DNA of 11,378 nt from Nitrospirota bacterium. Its GTDB lineage: Bacteria; UBA2233. Both the position numbers and the translations under genes were made by a program. The notes beneath the pieces were generated by a model, which ran no database searches, was not told the DNA's origin, and saw only the letters and a list, made by a program, of their open reading frames with translations. Below, piece by piece: positions 5,155-11,378 of the stretch (within the stretch, counting starts at the first letter, position 1; the number at the start of each line of letters is the position of its first letter). The stretch is taken from the NCBI GenBank assembly GCA_011620345.1, contig WOZJ01000052.1:1-11378 (forward strand), read 5' to 3'.

Positions 5155-5210
5155 CGGGCAAACAATGCTCGGCGAACGCCGCCACAATCAAGGGGCGAGA
5201 AGTTTGCCCG
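5155..5210. repeat. Long-range inverted repeat at convergent gene ends
   Basis: CGGGCAAAC (5155-5163) and GTTTGCCCG (5202-5210) are perfect 9-bp inverted arms 38 bp apart. Inside them are CTCG/CGAG (5168-5171 and 5196-5199) and a GGC-GAAC-GCC mini-hairpin (5171-5180), so the region could fold into one branched stem. It sits between the glgX stop and the AGPS-like stop, and its right arm is within the AGPS coding end. It is a possible bidirectional 3' end structure, without a proper T tract on either strand. Confidence 0.4.
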
Positions 5211-6780
5211 GGTTGAGCATGCCTGTGGGGTCGAGTGTAGCCTTGAGCGATCGAAGCAAGGAAAGCCCGGCCTCGCCTTTTTCTTCGGTCATGTAAGAGA
5301 GGTGGTCGGAGCCTACTCCGTGGTGGTGGGTGAGCGTGGCTTTCTGCCCAAGGACGGCTTGGATGGAGGCACGCTTGATCGTTTGCCAGCACGCGAGGGT
5401 TTCTTCAAACCCCTTGGCAAGCCTAAAAAAGAACGTGAAGTAAAGGCTCGCGCCTGTTTCGTAGCCGTGCGAGAGGTGCGCCATGGCATAGACCCGGCCG
5501 TTATCTGTAGCGAGCGCGCCCTGCATGGCCTTCATGACGGCCCCGTAGGTAGGCAGGAGCCTGGAGTAGGCCGTTGCGGTCTCTAGCGTATCCACTCCGT
5601 AGCCAAGCTCCCAAAGCGCGTTGCGCAGGTATGGCAGCCGAAAGCGGCTCTTTTGCCAGCTCTTCCCGGGGATCCTTCCAAGCCCTATGCCCTTGTGCGT
5701 ACGGACCACCGCAGCGGCTTCTTGAAGGGCCTTCGCAACGTCCCCCCGCCTGCCGGCCGCTCCGTAGAGCAAAAGACAGCGCTGTTCCCCTTTTGGCATG
5801 CGAAATCGCAGCGCCCTGTTGGCCAGCCCTCCAAGCCTGCCCAAATTGGCCAAAAGAAAGGAAACTCTCGTCTCGAAGACATCGCTTAGCCGAAGCATGC
5901 ATAAGGGGACTCGCGCTTGGATAAGCTCCCGAACCGCCTCGAGCCCTGCCTCGAACCCCGGAAGCAGCGCGCCCACGAAGGCTTGCTTTTCTGGGAGCGG
6001 CCGAACCCTCACGACGGCCTCGGTCAAAACGCCAAAGCACCCTTCCGAGCCAAGGACGACGTGCTTGAGCTCAGCCCCGGCCGCCGAAGCGGGGTGCGGG
6101 GGAATGTCGAGCCTCCCTGCCGGCGTGATCATACGCCCGCCTTGGAACATGTCCGCAATTCTTCCGTAGCCCAGCGACTCCTGGCCGCTCGAGTGCGTCA
6201 CGACCCAGCCGCCCAAGCTCGAATAGGCGAAGGATTGCGGGAAATGCCCGAGCGTGAACCCATTGGCCCTTAGCTGCGCCTCGAGCCATGGGCCTTGAAC
6301 GCCCGCCTCGAACCTCGCCAAATGGCTTTTTTGATCGAGCTCGAGCAGGGCCTGCATCCTTTCGAGGCTAAGGGTCAAAACGGGCTTTCCGTTCTCAACT
6401 GGGTTCACCCCGCCCGTAACGGAGGTTCCGCCTCCGTACGGAATGACCTGCGCATCGATCCCACTTGCCCATTCGAGCAATTCTTCGATGTCCGATGGGC
6501 AAACAGGAAACGCGACGCCATCCGGCACGTTGGGAACTTCCCCGAACCGAAGCGCCGCCAAATCGGCAAAGCTCTGGCCGCGCGCACGCACAAGCCGTGT
6601 CTTTGGGTCACAGGCCACAAGCGGATGATCGGGAAGCCTGGGAAACGGCACAGGGATACTCTCGGCCGGAACACTGGGTGCTGGGGCGCTTTCTCCAAGC
6701 TCGGCCACAAGAAACCCCAGAGCCTCTTTTGGAAGAGGATAGACAACATCCTCTTCACCCCAGCCGTTCCAGCGGCGCAT
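5188..6780 (-). CDS. Alkyldihydroxyacetonephosphate-synthase-like FAD-binding oxidase
   Basis: A 530-residue VAO/PCMH-type flavoprotein. Alkyl-DHAP synthase (AGPS) swaps the acyl chain of acyl-DHAP for a fatty alcohol, making the ether bond of ether lipids. Family hallmarks seen: the N-terminal RWNGWG (3-8); the FAD pyrophosphate loop PYGGGTSVTGG (114-124); a Tyr-rich segment SLYFTFFFR, matching the region of the catalytic Tyr in AGPS; HHHGVG (485-490), the His cluster typical of AGPS; and the C-terminal LDPTGMLNPGK common to the superfamily. YLRNALWELGYGVDTLETA also aligns with eukaryotic AGPS by eye. No peroxisomal signal or transmembrane segment is present. ATG 6780 is preferred: GGGAGGG, inside the end of glpD, precedes it, and the protein then starts MRRWNGWG; a 19-residue longer frame from 6837 overlaps glpD. 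It lies 2 bp after the glpD stop, so the two are almost surely co-translated. A related flavin oxidase on another hydroxy acid remains possible. Confidence 0.88.
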   Translation of the reverse strand: MRRWNGWGEEDVVYPLPKEALGFLVAELGESAPAPSVPAESIPVPFPRLPDHPLVACDPKTRLVRARGQSFADLAALRFGEVPNVPDGVAFPVCPSDIEELLEWASGIDAQVIPYGGGTSVTGGVNPVENGKPVLTLSLERMQALLELDQKSHLARFEAGVQGPWLEAQLRANGFTLGHFPQSFAYSSLGGWVVTHSSGQESLGYGRIADMFQGGRMITPAGRLDIPPHPASAAGAELKHVVLGSEGCFGVLTEAVVRVRPLPEKQAFVGALLPGFEAGLEAVRELIQARVPLCMLRLSDVFETRVSFLLANLGRLGGLANRALRFRMPKGEQRCLLLYGAAGRRGDVAKALQEAAAVVRTHKGIGLGRIPGKSWQKSRFRLPYLRNALWELGYGVDTLETATAYSRLLPTYGAVMKAMQGALATDNGRVYAMAHLSHGYETGASLYFTFFFRLAKGFEETLACWQTIKRASIQAVLGQKATLTHHHGVGSDHLSYMTEEKGEAGLSLLRSLKATLDPTGMLNPGKLLAP

Positions 6781-6782
6781 GG

Positions 6783-8360
6783 CTACCCTCCCATGGGAGC
6801 ATAAGCTCTGTCGACGAGCGCGAGATAATCCTTCCATTCGGCATTCCAGCGCGGCTCGTCCCAGCCCAGCGGAGCCAAAAGCCGCGCTTTAAGCTTCCCT
6901 CCAAGCATCGAGCCACCTTTTGGCAAAAGATGCCCGAGCCTGGTTCTTCGCAAGAGCAAATCGTCCAAGTGTACGATGCGCTCGTTTTTGGCTGCATAAA
7001 CGAGCTCTCCAAAGCTATACGGTGTCCCCTGGACTGTCTTCAAGTCGGCAGGGCTTACGCCTTTCATGAAGGCCGCTAAATCTGGCCCATACCTGCCTGC
7101 AAGCCGAAGCGTGCTTGGAAGGCCAAGCCCGGGGTAAGATTCCATCACCAGCGAAAGCGCACCTTCTGGGGTCTGCTCAAGCCCTACCGATCGCCCCTTT
7201 GGCTGCAACCCCCTTCCCGAAATTCGCTTGAGGATGAAAGCGAGCGTCTTTTGACCCATGACCCGAAATGTCGTGAGCTTTCCGCCCGTGATCGTGATCA
7301 GTCCTTGCTCGTCTAGCAACGCCTCTTCCCTGCTTTCCTCGGAGGGGGGCCTGTCTCCCCTACCGACAACGGGCCGAACGCCCGCGTAGGTGCCGAGCAT
7401 GTCCTTCTGGCCCAGCCCAAGCTCACGAAAGCGCCGCTCGATCCCCTCTAAAAGGTAAGAAACTTCCGCTTCAGAGGCCACGGGCTCTTCGTCCAAAGGG
7501 GCCTTGTGGTCCACATCCGTCGTCCCGACAAGGCTCACCCCCTCCCAAGGGAAGGCATAGATCGGCCTTCCGTCTCGATGGTGGGCAAACGTCACAGAAA
7601 GCGCCACGGGAAGCTTTTCTTGGGGGAAGACAAGGTGCGTCCCCCGAAGCGGCCTAAGCATGGCTGGCTTTCCAAGGTGCGCCCTGAGCTTATCCCCCAA
7701 AGCCCCCGCGGCGTTGACAACCACCCTTGCCTGGATTTCGTGCGTCGCGCTCGAGCGAAGGTCGCTCACGGCCAGGCCTGCGACCTCACCCTTCGCGTTT
7801 AGAAGCAGCCCTTCGACTTTTGTATAGTTCATAGTGATGGCCCCGAAACGTTCGGCCTCCCGAAGGACACGGTAAACGAGCCTCGCATCGTCCACAATTC
7901 CGTCAAAATAGAAAAAGGCCGCCTTTAGCCCTTTTAGCTGGACGTTTGGGGCCGAGAGCCAGCTGTCCATCTCGTTCAAACGGCCGAAGGGGCGCTTGCT
8001 TTTGGCGAGCGCTTGGTAGAGCCTAAGGCCCGACGACAACATCCAAGGACGCATTTTGTCGCCCTCGTGGATTAGATAGAGGTACTTGAGAGGCTCTACG
8101 AGCCCCGCCCCTTCTTGAAGCAGCCGCTCGCGCTCTCTGGCCCCCTCTTTGACGAGCCCGATCTTTGCTTGCTTTAGGTAGCGAAGGCCGCCGTGGATCA
8201 TCTTGGAGCTCCGAGACGAAGTCCCGCATGCAAAATCACGCTGCTCAAAAAGGACGACAGAAAGCCCGGCGCGCGCCGCCTCCCTGGCCACGGCCACACC
8301 CGTGATGCCGCCGCCCACCACAGCCACATCCCAAACCTTGGAAACAAGCCCCTCTATCAA
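6783..8360 (-). CDS. glpD: FAD-dependent glycerol-3-phosphate dehydrogenase
   Basis: A 525-residue (with the chosen start) membrane-associated flavoenzyme oxidising sn-glycerol 3-phosphate to DHAP and passing electrons to quinone. The N-terminal FAD dinucleotide fold is clear: VVGGGITG (14-21), then VLFEQRDFACGTSSRSSKMIHGG, the GlpD signature with SSK-IHGGLRYL. Later come VVNAAG, PLRGTHLVF, VGTTDVDH and the C-terminal part ITGGKLTTFRVMGQ. The C-terminal helical domain ends with DDLLLRRTRLG. Length suits the GlpD family (E. coli 501). I prefer TTG 8360 as start: GAGAGG lies 5 bp upstream, the fold then begins about 10 residues in, as in GlpD, and predicted minus-strand transcription starts below the ATG at 8411. 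That ATG (542 residues) has no ribosome-binding site and lies inside the operator dyad; TTG 8375 is a third option. It is the first gene of a pair with the AGPS-like gene; no glycerol kinase is in view. Confidence 0.93.
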   Translation of the reverse strand: MIEGLVSKVWDVAVVGGGITGVAVAREAARAGLSVVLFEQRDFACGTSSRSSKMIHGGLRYLKQAKIGLVKEGARERERLLQEGAGLVEPLKYLYLIHEGDKMRPWMLSSGLRLYQALAKSKRPFGRLNEMDSWLSAPNVQLKGLKAAFFYFDGIVDDARLVYRVLREAERFGAITMNYTKVEGLLLNAKGEVAGLAVSDLRSSATHEIQARVVVNAAGALGDKLRAHLGKPAMLRPLRGTHLVFPQEKLPVALSVTFAHHRDGRPIYAFPWEGVSLVGTTDVDHKAPLDEEPVASEAEVSYLLEGIERRFRELGLGQKDMLGTYAGVRPVVGRGDRPPSEESREEALLDEQGLITITGGKLTTFRVMGQKTLAFILKRISGRGLQPKGRSVGLEQTPEGALSLVMESYPGLGLPSTLRLAGRYGPDLAAFMKGVSPADLKTVQGTPYSFGELVYAAKNERIVHLDDLLLRRTRLGHLLPKGGSMLGGKLKARLLAPLGWDEPRWNAEWKDYLALVDRAYAPMGG

Positions 8361-8378
8361 CTTGGCCTCTCGCAAAAC

Positions 8379-8407
8379 TTTACCTGTATACAGCTTGATG
8401 ATATCAT
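8379..8407 (+). promoter_or_regulatory. Candidate promoter for the secreted-protein gene
   Basis: TTTACC (8379-8384) and TATCAT (8402-8407) are separated by exactly 17 bp and match sigma70 consensus at 4/6 and 5/6 positions. The predicted start near 8414 gives a leader of about 40 nt before ATG 8454. The -10 box lies within the centre of the operator dyad. Confidence 0.5.
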
Positions 8408-8425
8408 ACATCAGACTGTGTACAG
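8384..8425. promoter_or_regulatory. 42-bp dyad operator between glpD and the secreted-protein gene
   Basis: Arms 8384-8400 and 8409-8425 are inverted copies matching at 14 of 17 positions around a centre at 8404.5. The outer part is CTGTATACAG (8384-8393, itself a perfect palindrome) and CTGTGTACAG (8416-8425, one base different); the inner part is TGATG (8396-8400) and CATCA (8409-8413). The two 10-mers are 32 bp apart, close to three helical turns, so a regulator could bind both on one DNA face. TGTATACA-type palindromes recall GntR-family operators, but no regulator gene is in the window. The dyad covers both predicted divergent promoters. Confidence 0.7.
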
Positions 8426-8430: not shown

Positions 8431-8453
8431 AAATAACCCTCAAGGAGGACGAA

Positions 8454-9272
8454 ATGTCCAGGATAAGGCTTGGAGCTTGGCAAACGTTCGTAAGCATCTG
8501 CCTGGCGCTCGCGTGCTTTATCGGTCTGGCACAAAGCCAGGAGCTTGGGGCTATCCAAGCCCCCCCCAAGGGCAGCTCCTTTACGTTCGAGGTCAAGGCA
8601 ACGGGCGATAAGCCCGCCACGATGAGCCTCTGGCAGGTCCCGGGAGAAGGGCTCGAGGTTCACACGCTCAAGGGCCTCGTCCGTAACGTGAAAGGAAGGA
8701 TCGGTTCGCAAACCCTTGAACAAGCAACGCCCTACAACTGCCTGGCCTGGGAAATTACGAAGCCGAACGATCCTAAGTTTCGAGGCGAGTACCTCTACGC
8801 GATCGTGGACAACGCGCTTTGCTGCTATTTAGAACGGCAGAGTTCGGGCGAAGAGAAATACTACGTCAAGCCGCTTGCGCTGTTTAGGTTTCCTTTGAGG
8901 CCGGAGGATAGCTTCAAAAACAGTACAACCTTCTATCTGCATCTTCCGGATACGGGCATTACGCTCGCCAAATCCTACACTTCCAAGGGGGCTACTACCG
9001 ACACGATCGAGGCCGAGGTGACCGTTGGCCAACAAGAGCAAATCACGACCAAAGCGGGCACGTTCCCCACGACAAAAGTCACGGTCACATTCCGCTCGCA
9101 TACGGGCCGGTTTTTGACGTCCGCCAACACGACGATCACGATGGAGCGCTGGTGGTCCGAAAAGCTCGGCTACTTTATCAAAGAGCACGACGACATCCTG
9201 ATGGACGCCCTAATCGACAGCAAAGGCACGGTTAACAAAGAACTCGTAAGCTTTAGGCTTCCTTCCCCCTAG
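8454..9272 (+). CDS. Secreted beta-rich protein of unknown function
   Basis: A 272-residue protein I do not recognise as a named gene. Residues 1-28 form a Sec signal peptide: basic start MSRIR, a hydrophobic core about 11-25, and a likely signal-peptidase I cut after AQS28. The Cys at 21 does not sit in a proper lipobox (LALAC), so a lipoprotein is unlikely. The mature part is rich in alternating beta-strand patterns. The C-terminal half has TKAGTFPTTKVTV (199-211) and WWSEKLGYFIKEH (233-245), recalling the AGTFxxxKV and WYSxxLGYxVK phrases of periplasmic DUF3108-like proteins; that is a resemblance, not an assignment. C96, C123 and C124 could form a disulfide. ATG 8454 is set by AAGGAGG 5 bp upstream; the frame is open further up, but that part runs through glpD. 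It is divergent from glpD and shares the dyad operator, so it may be co-regulated with glycerol-phosphate or lipid metabolism. Confidence 0.85.
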   Translation: MSRIRLGAWQTFVSICLALACFIGLAQSQELGAIQAPPKGSSFTFEVKATGDKPATMSLWQVPGEGLEVHTLKGLVRNVKGRIGSQTLEQATPYNCLAWEITKPNDPKFRGEYLYAIVDNALCCYLERQSSGEEKYYVKPLALFRFPLRPEDSFKNSTTFYLHLPDTGITLAKSYTSKGATTDTIEAEVTVGQQEQITTKAGTFPTTKVTVTFRSHTGRFLTSANTTITMERWWSEKLGYFIKEHDDILMDALIDSKGTVNKELVSFRLPSP

Positions 9273-9367: not shown

Positions 9368-10648
9368 ATGGAATCAAAAGAAAATACGCTTTGGAGATCT
9401 TTAGGAATGGATCTGGAGCGTCACGACGCCTTCCTTTCTCCCTTGCCCAAGGTGTATGAGGAAATATTCCTAAGCCAGCCCAACAGGCCTAAAGGGATGG
9501 CATACTTCGACACCGTCATGTCGGGCGTCCACAGCCTTCGGGTCGAAGAGCTCGTCGCACACAAGCAACAAGGCGGCTTCGTCGTCGGCACGTATTGCGT
9601 TTACGTCCCAGACGAGCTGATCCTCGCCATGGGGGGGATTCCCGTGGGGCTCTGCGCCGGCGCTCATTTCAGCGTTCCCGCAGCCGAGGCCGTTTTGCCC
9701 CAGACCCTTTGTCCCCTGATAAAATCTACCTTCGGGTTCTACCTTGAACGCATCTGCCCCTACATGCAAGCCTGCGACCTGATCGTCGGCGAGACAACCT
9801 GCGATGGCAAAAAGAAGGCCTGGGAGATCATGGCAGATGGTCTTCCCCTTTACGTCATGGAGCTGCCGCAGAAAAAAGGCCCAAAAGATGAAGAACTCTG
9901 GCAATCAGAGGTTTGGGGGTTGCTAGACGAGATCCGCGCCCGTTTCCACGCCCAAATGCCCAGCGTCCAATCCCTACAAGACGCCATCCACAAGGTCAAC
10001 CGCAAGCGTTCCGCCCTGAAAGAGCTCTATGCCCTAAGGCAGAACGACCCCGCCCCGATCAGCGGCAAGGACAGCCTACTCGTTTCACAGCTCGCCTTTT
10101 TTGACGACCCCGAGCGGTTCGCAAGCCAGGTAGAAGCCTTGAACGAAGAGCTCAAGGCGCGCGTGGGGCGCGGCGAAGGGGTGGCCCCCAAGGGCAGCCC
10201 AAGGCTGCTCATCGCCGGCACCCCCATGCCATTGCCAGACTGGAAGCTCCACCATATCCTCGAAACGAGCGGAGGGGTGGCGGTAGCCGAAGAGACCTGT
10301 ACCGGAACCCGCTACTTAGAAGCTAGCGCTGAAGGGGATGCAAAGACACGGGAAGCCTTGATCGAGAGCATCGCAGACCGCTTCCTAGGGGTTCACTGCG
10401 CCTGCTTCAGCCCCAACCCGGAGCGTATCGAAGATATCATTCGCCTGGCCAAGTCGCAAAAAGCGGACGGGGTTATCTACGCCACTTTGCCGTTTTGTCA
10501 AACCTACCAGCTGGAGTTTCCGGGGGTCCAGAAAGCGCTAAGGGAGGCGGGCATCCCCCTCCTTTCGATAGAGAGCGATTTCAGCGACGAGGATGCGGGC
10601 CAGCTCTCGACGCGCGTCCAAGCGTTTTTGGAGATGATCGGTAAATGA
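9368..10648 (+). CDS. 2-hydroxyacyl-CoA dehydratase family, double-cubane-cluster protein type (YjiM-like)
   Basis: A 426-residue iron-sulfur protein of the HgdB/FldB/YjiM superfamily. Relatives hold [4Fe-4S] units, and in the double-cubane subgroup an [Fe8S9] cluster that, when energised by an ATP-driven activator, reduces small inert substrates. Family landmarks: GTYCVYVPDELILAMGGIPV (74-93), TLCPLIKS (113-120), DLIVGETTCDGKKKAWE (137-153), YVMELP (162-167), AEETCTGTRYLE (307-318), VHCACF (342-347) and LPFCQTYQLE (374-383). The TCDGKKK plus YVMELP pairing and a single ORF without a partner subunit favour the double-cubane/YjiM type over true two-subunit dehydratases. Ten cysteines are present; C77, C115, C145, C311, C346 (or C344) and C377 are the likely ligands, by inference from motif positions. 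The ATG has GAGAGGAGTGAGG directly upstream. The stop overlaps the activator start (ATGA), an obligate partner. The substrate is unknown. Confidence 0.9.
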   Translation: MESKENTLWRSLGMDLERHDAFLSPLPKVYEEIFLSQPNRPKGMAYFDTVMSGVHSLRVEELVAHKQQGGFVVGTYCVYVPDELILAMGGIPVGLCAGAHFSVPAAEAVLPQTLCPLIKSTFGFYLERICPYMQACDLIVGETTCDGKKKAWEIMADGLPLYVMELPQKKGPKDEELWQSEVWGLLDEIRARFHAQMPSVQSLQDAIHKVNRKRSALKELYALRQNDPAPISGKDSLLVSQLAFFDDPERFASQVEALNEELKARVGRGEGVAPKGSPRLLIAGTPMPLPDWKLHHILETSGGVAVAEETCTGTRYLEASAEGDAKTREALIESIADRFLGVHCACFSPNPERIEDIIRLAKSQKADGVIYATLPFCQTYQLEFPGVQKALREAGIPLLSIESDFSDEDAGQLSTRVQAFLEMIGK

Positions 10649-11378
10649 TCGTTGCCGGGCTGGACATAGGCTCGACCACGACGAAGGCTTACTTGATTTC
10701 CGAAAAACCGCTCGGCGGGGCCGTTCTTCCTACGGCCCCAAGCCCTTCTAAGGCGGCCAAAAAAGCGCTCGAGGCCGCCTGCAACCGCTCTTCGATCGTA
10801 CCCGAGGCCATCTTGCGCATCGTGGCCACGGGCTACGGGCGAAAGGCCTTCTTGCCTGCAAGCGCCTGCATCAGCGAAATCACCGCACAGGCTAAAGGAG
10901 TAAGCTTTCTCTTCCCTAGGGCGCGGAGCATCCTGGATATCGGCGGGCAAGATAGCAAGGCAATCGCGCTGAACGAGCGGGGAGAAGTTCAAGACTTCGT
11001 CATGAACGACAAGTGCGCCGCGGGCACGGGCAGGTTTTTGGAGTTCACGCTTCATAGCCTGGGCATTTCTTTTGAGCAGCTGCCCAAGCTCGCAGACGCC
11101 GAGCCATACCCCTTGAACACAACCTGTGCCGTGTTCGCCCAGTCCGAGGTTGTCTCGCTCCTTTCCGGCGAAGTGCCGCTACCGGCCATCGTGGCGGGGC
11201 TTTTTTGGCAGATGGCGACGAAGGCAAAAAACCTGGCATCGAGGCTAAGGCTCGCTTTCCCGCTCGTTTTCACGGGCGGTATGGCCAGGCTCTCTCAGGC
11301 CGGAAACGCCCTTTCCAGGAGCTTCCAGGAAGAAATCCTCATCCCCGATGAGCCCCAGCTCACGGCAGCGCTCGGGGC
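10645..11378 (+). CDS. Acyl-CoA dehydratase activase / BadF-BcrA-HgdC ATPase (partial, runs off window)
   Basis: The first 244 codons of the ATP-hydrolysing iron-sulfur reductase that injects low-potential electrons into the preceding dehydratase-type protein. It has the actin/hexokinase-like ASKHA fold: phosphate-1 loop GLDIGSTTTK (5-14), VATGYGRK (60-67), the second phosphate loop LDIGGQDSK (97-105) and the TGG of the adenosine site (210-212). The two cysteines that together bridge the homodimer's [4Fe-4S] cluster are present: C124 in NDKCAAGTGRFLE and C161 in NTTCAVFAQSE. The frame stays open to the right edge; known activators are about 255-270 residues, so only a short end is missing unless it is a longer fused form. 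Its ATG overlaps the stop of the upstream gene, fitting tight stoichiometric coupling. The segment from 15 to 50 is short compared with many activases. The activator is family-wide, so its own sequence does not reveal the substrate. Confidence 0.95.
   Translation, partial: MIVAGLDIGSTTTKAYLISEKPLGGAVLPTAPSPSKAAKKALEAACNRSSIVPEAILRIVATGYGRKAFLPASACISEITAQAKGVSFLFPRARSILDIGGQDSKAIALNERGEVQDFVMNDKCAAGTGRFLEFTLHSLGISFEQLPKLADAEPYPLNTTCAVFAQSEVVSLLSGEVPLPAIVAGLFWQMATKAKNLASRLRLAFPLVFTGGMARLSQAGNALSRSFQEEILIPDEPQLTAALG

Follow-up and report, generated by a model that had tools for sequence, protein, structure and literature searches.

A double-cubane cluster protein and its ATPase activator in an uncultured Nitrospirota lineage, and the co-occurrence of this protein family with SelD

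The closest described system to the locus presented here is the double-cubane cluster protein (DCCP) of Carboxydothermus hydrogenoformans together with its reductase DCCP-R (PDB 6eno, 7yyl, 7yzm). Acetylene, hydrazine and azide, but not N2, are substrates of the characterised DCCP, in reactions whose physiological relevance is unclear (PMC11971306). No physiological substrate of DCCPs is reported in the literature that we surveyed, so the statement of the first-pass annotation that these are largely unknown still holds, while the genomic evidence below points to selenium metabolism, a direction absent from that annotation. More distantly, BzdN of the class I benzoyl-CoA reductase BzdNO/BzdPQ binds a cluster of the [8Fe-9S] type through cysteines that align with those of DCCP, and its activator belongs to the family of the DCCP activator, although this enzyme is a heterodimer with a [4Fe-4S] catalytic subunit, whereas the system studied here has one subunit type. 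The 2-hydroxyisocaproyl-CoA dehydratase HadBC shares the fold and the activator, but it has two different subunits and no double-cubane cluster. Finally, an E. coli control genome passes NF040772 (“double-cubane-cluster-containing anaerobic reductase”), the NCBI equivalog model dedicated to DCCPs, and also has the selenophosphate synthetase SelD; the matching protein is presumably YjiM. The yjiM/yjiL genes are only listed in an expression table, with no function assigned (PMC9068703).

The window, i.e., the whole stretch of 11,378 nt that was analysed, is one contig (C21; WOZJ01000052.1) of a 97% complete, 1.8 Mb Nitrospirota genome. Its DCCP gene is located at 9,368–10,648 (+), starts with ATG and encodes a 426 aa protein. 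One dehydratase-family subunit with ten cysteines and the motifs TCDGKKK and YVMELP had been described at this position from the sequence and likened to double-cubane systems. Both motifs are present, the cysteines are exactly ten (77, 96, 115, 130, 136, 145, 311, 344, 346, and 377), and the likeness was upheld by profiles, structures and conserved ligand positions. The protein matches the Pfam HGD-D family with 378 bits and NF040772 with 451.3 bits against a cut-off of 350, while it fails the models of HadC (90 bits, cut-off 700), BzdN (82 bits, cut-off 453.8), and BcrC (53.9 bits, cut-off 421.2). Among solved structures, the best matches by sequence are the Carboxydothermus DCCP and the DCCP:DCCP-R complexes (6eno, 7yyl; E-values from about 1e-151 to 2e-151; 52–53% full-length identity), followed by BzdN (E-value = 4e-23; 22% identity) and HadC (E-value = 4e-17; 21% identity). 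An AlphaFold model (pLDDT 93.6) superimposes on the solved DCCP (6eno/7yzm) with an rmsd of 1.0 over 421–422 residues (Z 61), compared with 2.0–2.2 (Z 43–45) for BzdN and HadC, the latter being at 2.2. A phylogeny against double-cubane proteins had been proposed as a check, and in our tree of 53 proteins all DCCPs, including that of the window, fall on one side of a branch with a support of 100/100. Within this clade, the window protein and its counterpart from the sister genome UBA2233 nest in a group of 17 rows, whose remaining members all belong to Bacillota (98/96). This placement suggests, without proving it, that the DCCP of this genome was acquired horizontally.

The cluster ligands were located by phmmer and profile alignment with BzdN, where the [8Fe-9S] cluster is bound by Cys36, Cys73, Cys100, Cys263, Cys293, and Cys327 (PMC11971306). 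The corresponding positions in the window DCCP, all on the forward strand, would be Cys77 (codon at 9,596–9,598; BzdN Cys36), Cys115 (9,710–9,712; Cys73), Cys145 (9,800–9,802; Cys100), Cys311 (10,298–10,300; Cys263), Cys344 (10,397–10,399; Cys293), and Cys377 (10,496–10,498; Cys327). Direct alignment paired five of the six; Cys145 was assigned through the profile with a three-residue offset and is the only invariant cysteine of its region. Across 42 aligned DCCPs all six are conserved (Cys77, for instance, in 42/42), with a single gap at Cys377 (41/42). Three of the other cysteines (C96, C130, and C346) are nearly invariant, and C136 is not. The window DCCP therefore appears to carry the six cysteines that hold the [8Fe-9S] cluster in this family, which is the sequence counterpart of the convergence on one cluster site that had been suggested for a structural model.

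The DCCP gene is coupled to that of its reductase, an HgdC/YjiL-type ATPase activator at 10,645–11,378 (+), through an ATGA start/stop overlap at 10,645–10,648 (+), and this arrangement, with both cluster cysteines in the activator, agrees with the first-pass annotation. The frame is open to the final base of the contig and gives 244 aa. The end of the contig is the sole reason why the activator is incomplete; its complete counterpart in the sister genome has 253 aa (L032, 8,528–9,289), by comparison with which the window copy is about 9 aa short. The cluster cysteines are C124 in NDKCAAGTG and C161 in NTTCAVFAQ, and together with the ASKHA motifs they give the protein the features of a paired ATPase reductase. 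It matches Pfam BcrAD_BadFG with 151 bits and TIGR00241 with 210 bits (above cut-off), and its best solved match is PDB 4eht (E-value = 2e-48), which also reflects the activator shared with HadBC, while 7yyl_E (DCCP-R) follows with an E-value of 6e-46. Only one other BadF-family protein was found in the genome (L003), beside a cation-transporter-like gene. It lacks NDKCAAGTG and was consequently rejected as a second activator, so the activator of the window pair looks dedicated to the DCCP; by our own reading, L003 may be a sugar kinase.

The pair also looks self-contained, since a six-frame search of the whole genome gave a single HGD-D gene and the sister contig shows no second subunit in the approximately 7 kb past its activator. 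No CoA-transferase was found in the window, and none was recognised in the same stretch of the sister contig, so that the absence of both partners, already noted from the sequence, was confirmed in a wider context. A true 2-hydroxyacyl-CoA dehydratase, with its second subunit just off the contig, belongs to the same superfamily and uses the same type of activator, and the contig does end within the activator gene. Such an enzyme has two different HGD-D subunits and an adjacent CoA-transferase, neither of which is present here; the single HGD-D gene in a 97% complete genome and the sister contig refute this explanation, barring a gene missing from this genome copy, and the score under the HadC cut-off and the far greater identity and structural similarity to DCCP than to HadC also stand against it, leaving it with practically no credence. 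The four subunits and the BzdN or BcrC scores that would mark a class I benzoyl-CoA reductase are likewise absent. It could also be argued that the protein has the DCCP fold with one [4Fe-4S] cluster only, as the 2-hydroxyacyl-CoA dehydratase subunits and BzdO, which have the same fold, lost the second half-cluster and hold a single [4Fe-4S] (PMC11971306), but this is highly improbable given that all six double-cubane ligand positions are cysteines and are invariant across the aligned DCCPs.

We therefore read the locus as a DCCP, with one HGD-D subunit type that probably forms a homodimer, and its dedicated ATPase reductase, working by ATP-driven electron transfer, and we assign this reading, a role in selenium metabolism excluded, a probability of about 0.93. 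Gene identity, fold, invariant cluster cysteines, gene coupling and the absence of a second subunit were all observed directly in this analysis, while the cluster type and the ATP-driven electron transfer are carried over by homology from the characterised relative. By analogy, an activator dimer with one bridging [4Fe-4S] cluster would receive an electron from a low-potential donor, bind and hydrolyse ATP, and pass the electron to the [8Fe-9S] cluster of the DCCP, where a small substrate would be reduced at a potential beyond the reach of ferredoxin alone. The window pair is an ordinary two-gene DCCP with its ATP-driven electron donor and adds one more host to the family. It shares with C. 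hydrogenoformans the six invariant cluster cysteines and the two-gene organisation with the activator, but it is found in an uncultured lineage and among unrelated neighbours. Concerning subunit composition elsewhere in the family, activator and DCCP are separated in the Tissierellia-type loci (L052, L053, L054, L055, L056, L057, and L081) by an additional ORF of about 260 aa (e.g., L055, 7,208–7,993). This ORF groups with DCCP by BLAST and has no Pfam or NCBIfam match; it may be a second subunit that has degenerated or diverged.

The searched set contains a single other species of this genus (G001, Nitrospirae bacterium UBA2233, DDYN01000053.1), and its locus (L032) harbors the same DCCP and activator pair with identities of 95% and 96%. 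Profile searches of the window genes 5′ of the DCCP identified glycerol-3-phosphate dehydrogenase-like, FAD-linked oxidase, glycogen debranching GlgX, flavodiiron, cupin and CBS-domain proteins. On the sister contig, by our own reading in the absence of profile matches, the genes 3′ of the activator may encode rhodanese-like proteins, an acyltransferase, an acyl-CoA dehydrogenase and an RmuC-like protein. There is no obvious functional partner among these upstream or downstream neighbours. Regarding individual genes, the flavodiiron protein at 1,725–2,930 (ODP and flavodoxin domains) adjoins the cupin and scores 284 bits with flavorubredoxin models, under their cut-offs. At 5,188–8,423 (-), the glycerol-3-phosphate dehydrogenase-like gene overlaps the FAD-linked (GlcD-like) oxidase gene by about 50 bases, possibly as an ether-lipid or glycerol module. 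The ORF at 8,445–9,272 (+) has a signal-peptide-like start and a weak DUF3108-like match under cut-off, and it is kept in the sister directly upstream of the DCCP (L032, 6,076–7,155). Two or three ORFs read as secreted rhodanese-like proteins lie 3′ of the sister activator (L032, 9,728–12,003), of which those at 9,728–10,282 and 10,298–11,269 may be a single gene split by a frameshift.

With respect to selenium, seven genomes with DCCP-like proteins were examined initially, and all seven have SelD, each with an in-frame TGA; in a set of 14 controls, the two genomes with SelD, those of E. coli and M. jannaschii, are also the two with DCCP. As the phylum sample (centred on G051) comprised five genomes only, a cross-phylum set of 389 genomes, each at least 90% complete, was used instead, and both the DCCP and the SelD models were run on it. 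DCCP was found over cut-off in 27 genomes, SelD in 180 and both in 26, so that SelD is present in 26/27 DCCP genomes, which span many phyla, compared with 154/362 of the others (43%; Fisher p = 1.1e-8); the genomes are not independent and this p-value, like the one that follows, is rough. Counted by family, SelD accompanies DCCP in 21/22. Within genomes bearing NrdD (anaerobic ribonucleotide reductase), SelD was detected in 16/17 with DCCP against 34/134 without (p = 4e-8), and as the excess persists there, anaerobiosis was rejected as the cause of the link. Genomes with other HGD-D proteins (the dehydratase and benzoyl-CoA reductase cousins) and no DCCP have SelD at the background rate (38/90, 42%), and a tie between SelD and the whole HGD-D superfamily was rejected on this basis. 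The DCCP family thus co-occurs with SelD beyond what lifestyle accounts for. The only one of the 27 DCCP genomes without SelD over cut-off, also after a second look, is G377 (L080). Of all 27, this genome has the weakest DCCP, which lies about 2.8 kb from its activator and could belong to a different subfamily.

In the genus studied here, SelD with an in-frame TGA, SelA and tRNA-Sec are located together on contig C19. YedE and YedF were searched for in the window genome and were not found, and no selenium gene was detected beside the DCCP in the window or on the sister contig. Since the DCCP lies away from contig C19 and neither YedE nor YedF was found, it is co-occurrence that links it to selenium in this genome. 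In other lineages the association is also spatial. Among 60 DCCP loci, the Se/S carrier family PF11823 was profile-confirmed near the DCCP at 11, LysR_Sec_metab (NF040786) at six over cut-off, and YedE at three; YedF was found once over cut-off, with three C-terminal halves just below. SelD is close to the DCCP in L079 and tRNA-Sec in L091. Overall, about half of the 60 loci have at least one selenium neighbour (tRNA cases counted), compared with a chance expectation of 5–13% per locus, a rough estimate from assumed gene densities. Additionally, in five loci the DCCP is preceded, at a distance of no more than about 100 bases, by a tRNA-Cys(GCA) of 95–96 nt whose variable arm is long and whose acceptor stem, in several cases, is extended. 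These Sec-like tRNAs belong to Bacillota and Thermodesulfobacteria: two are of Desulfosporosinus type (L044, 3,463–3,557; L045, 7,817–7,911), one is directly upstream of the DCCP of C. islandicus (L047, 201–295), and two are from Thermodesulfobacteria (L059, 99–193; L060, 398–493). In contrast to C. islandicus, no tRNA was found upstream of the DCCP in the window. A tRNA-Cys(GCA) of Desulfotomaculum nigrificans with a tRNA-Sec-like structure decodes UGA with Cys via SelB (reviewed in PMC11415595).

Taken together, these data tip the balance slightly toward a physiological job of DCCP in selenium metabolism. The main competing explanation is that DCCP reduces a small molecule unrelated to selenium (e.g., a toxic nitrogen or alkyne compound, or a C-S or unsaturated metabolite), and that its association with selenium comes from a common anaerobic, redox-rich lifestyle or from co-transfer. 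This is consistent with the in vitro substrates acetylene, hydrazine and azide, none of which is a selenium compound (PMC11971306), with the non-selenium neighbours of the DCCP in this genus, and with the down-regulation of the Calderihabitans pair under CO (PMC7306483). It is harder to reconcile with the SelD excess that remains within NrdD-bearing genomes, with the lack of any excess in cousin-dehydratase genomes and with the selenium genes and Sec-like tRNAs that adjoin DCCP in several lineages; we regard it as a real possibility that falls somewhat short of even odds. If DCCP does act in selenium metabolism, its simplest role, which we propose only tentatively, might be to reduce an oxidised or organic selenium compound at the expense of ATP and so deliver selenide to SelD. 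That DCCPs serve selenium metabolism across prokaryotes as a general ATP-driven reductase, converting a selenium compound to selenide for SelD, is a broader and rather unlikely extension. The reaction could then be, for example, a reductive C-Se cleavage, by analogy with the nitrogenase-like MarHDK, which performs reductive C-S cleavage. A bolder version, in which selenide would be the native bridging chalcogenide of the cluster, is a very long shot.

A connection of this kind has appeared before. The dicubane cluster protein was “provisionally linked” to selenium metabolism and was shown in methyltransferase clusters (PMC10418091). The STRING neighbours of YedE, YedF, LysR and DUF3343 include a CoA-substrate-specific enzyme activase and a 2-hydroxyglutaryl-CoA dehydratase subunit, although neither was proposed as a candidate in that work (PMC5322559). 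As the provisional link is already in print, the present result constitutes independent support and not a discovery; what is added here, with no claim of priority, is a quantitative test of co-occurrence with controls, along with the Sec-like tRNAs adjacent to DCCP. DCCP pairs are almost confined to selenium-using organisms, which suggests where their job should be sought. DCCPs carry a rare, nitrogenase-related cluster, and this co-occurrence makes the question of their substrate experimentally approachable.
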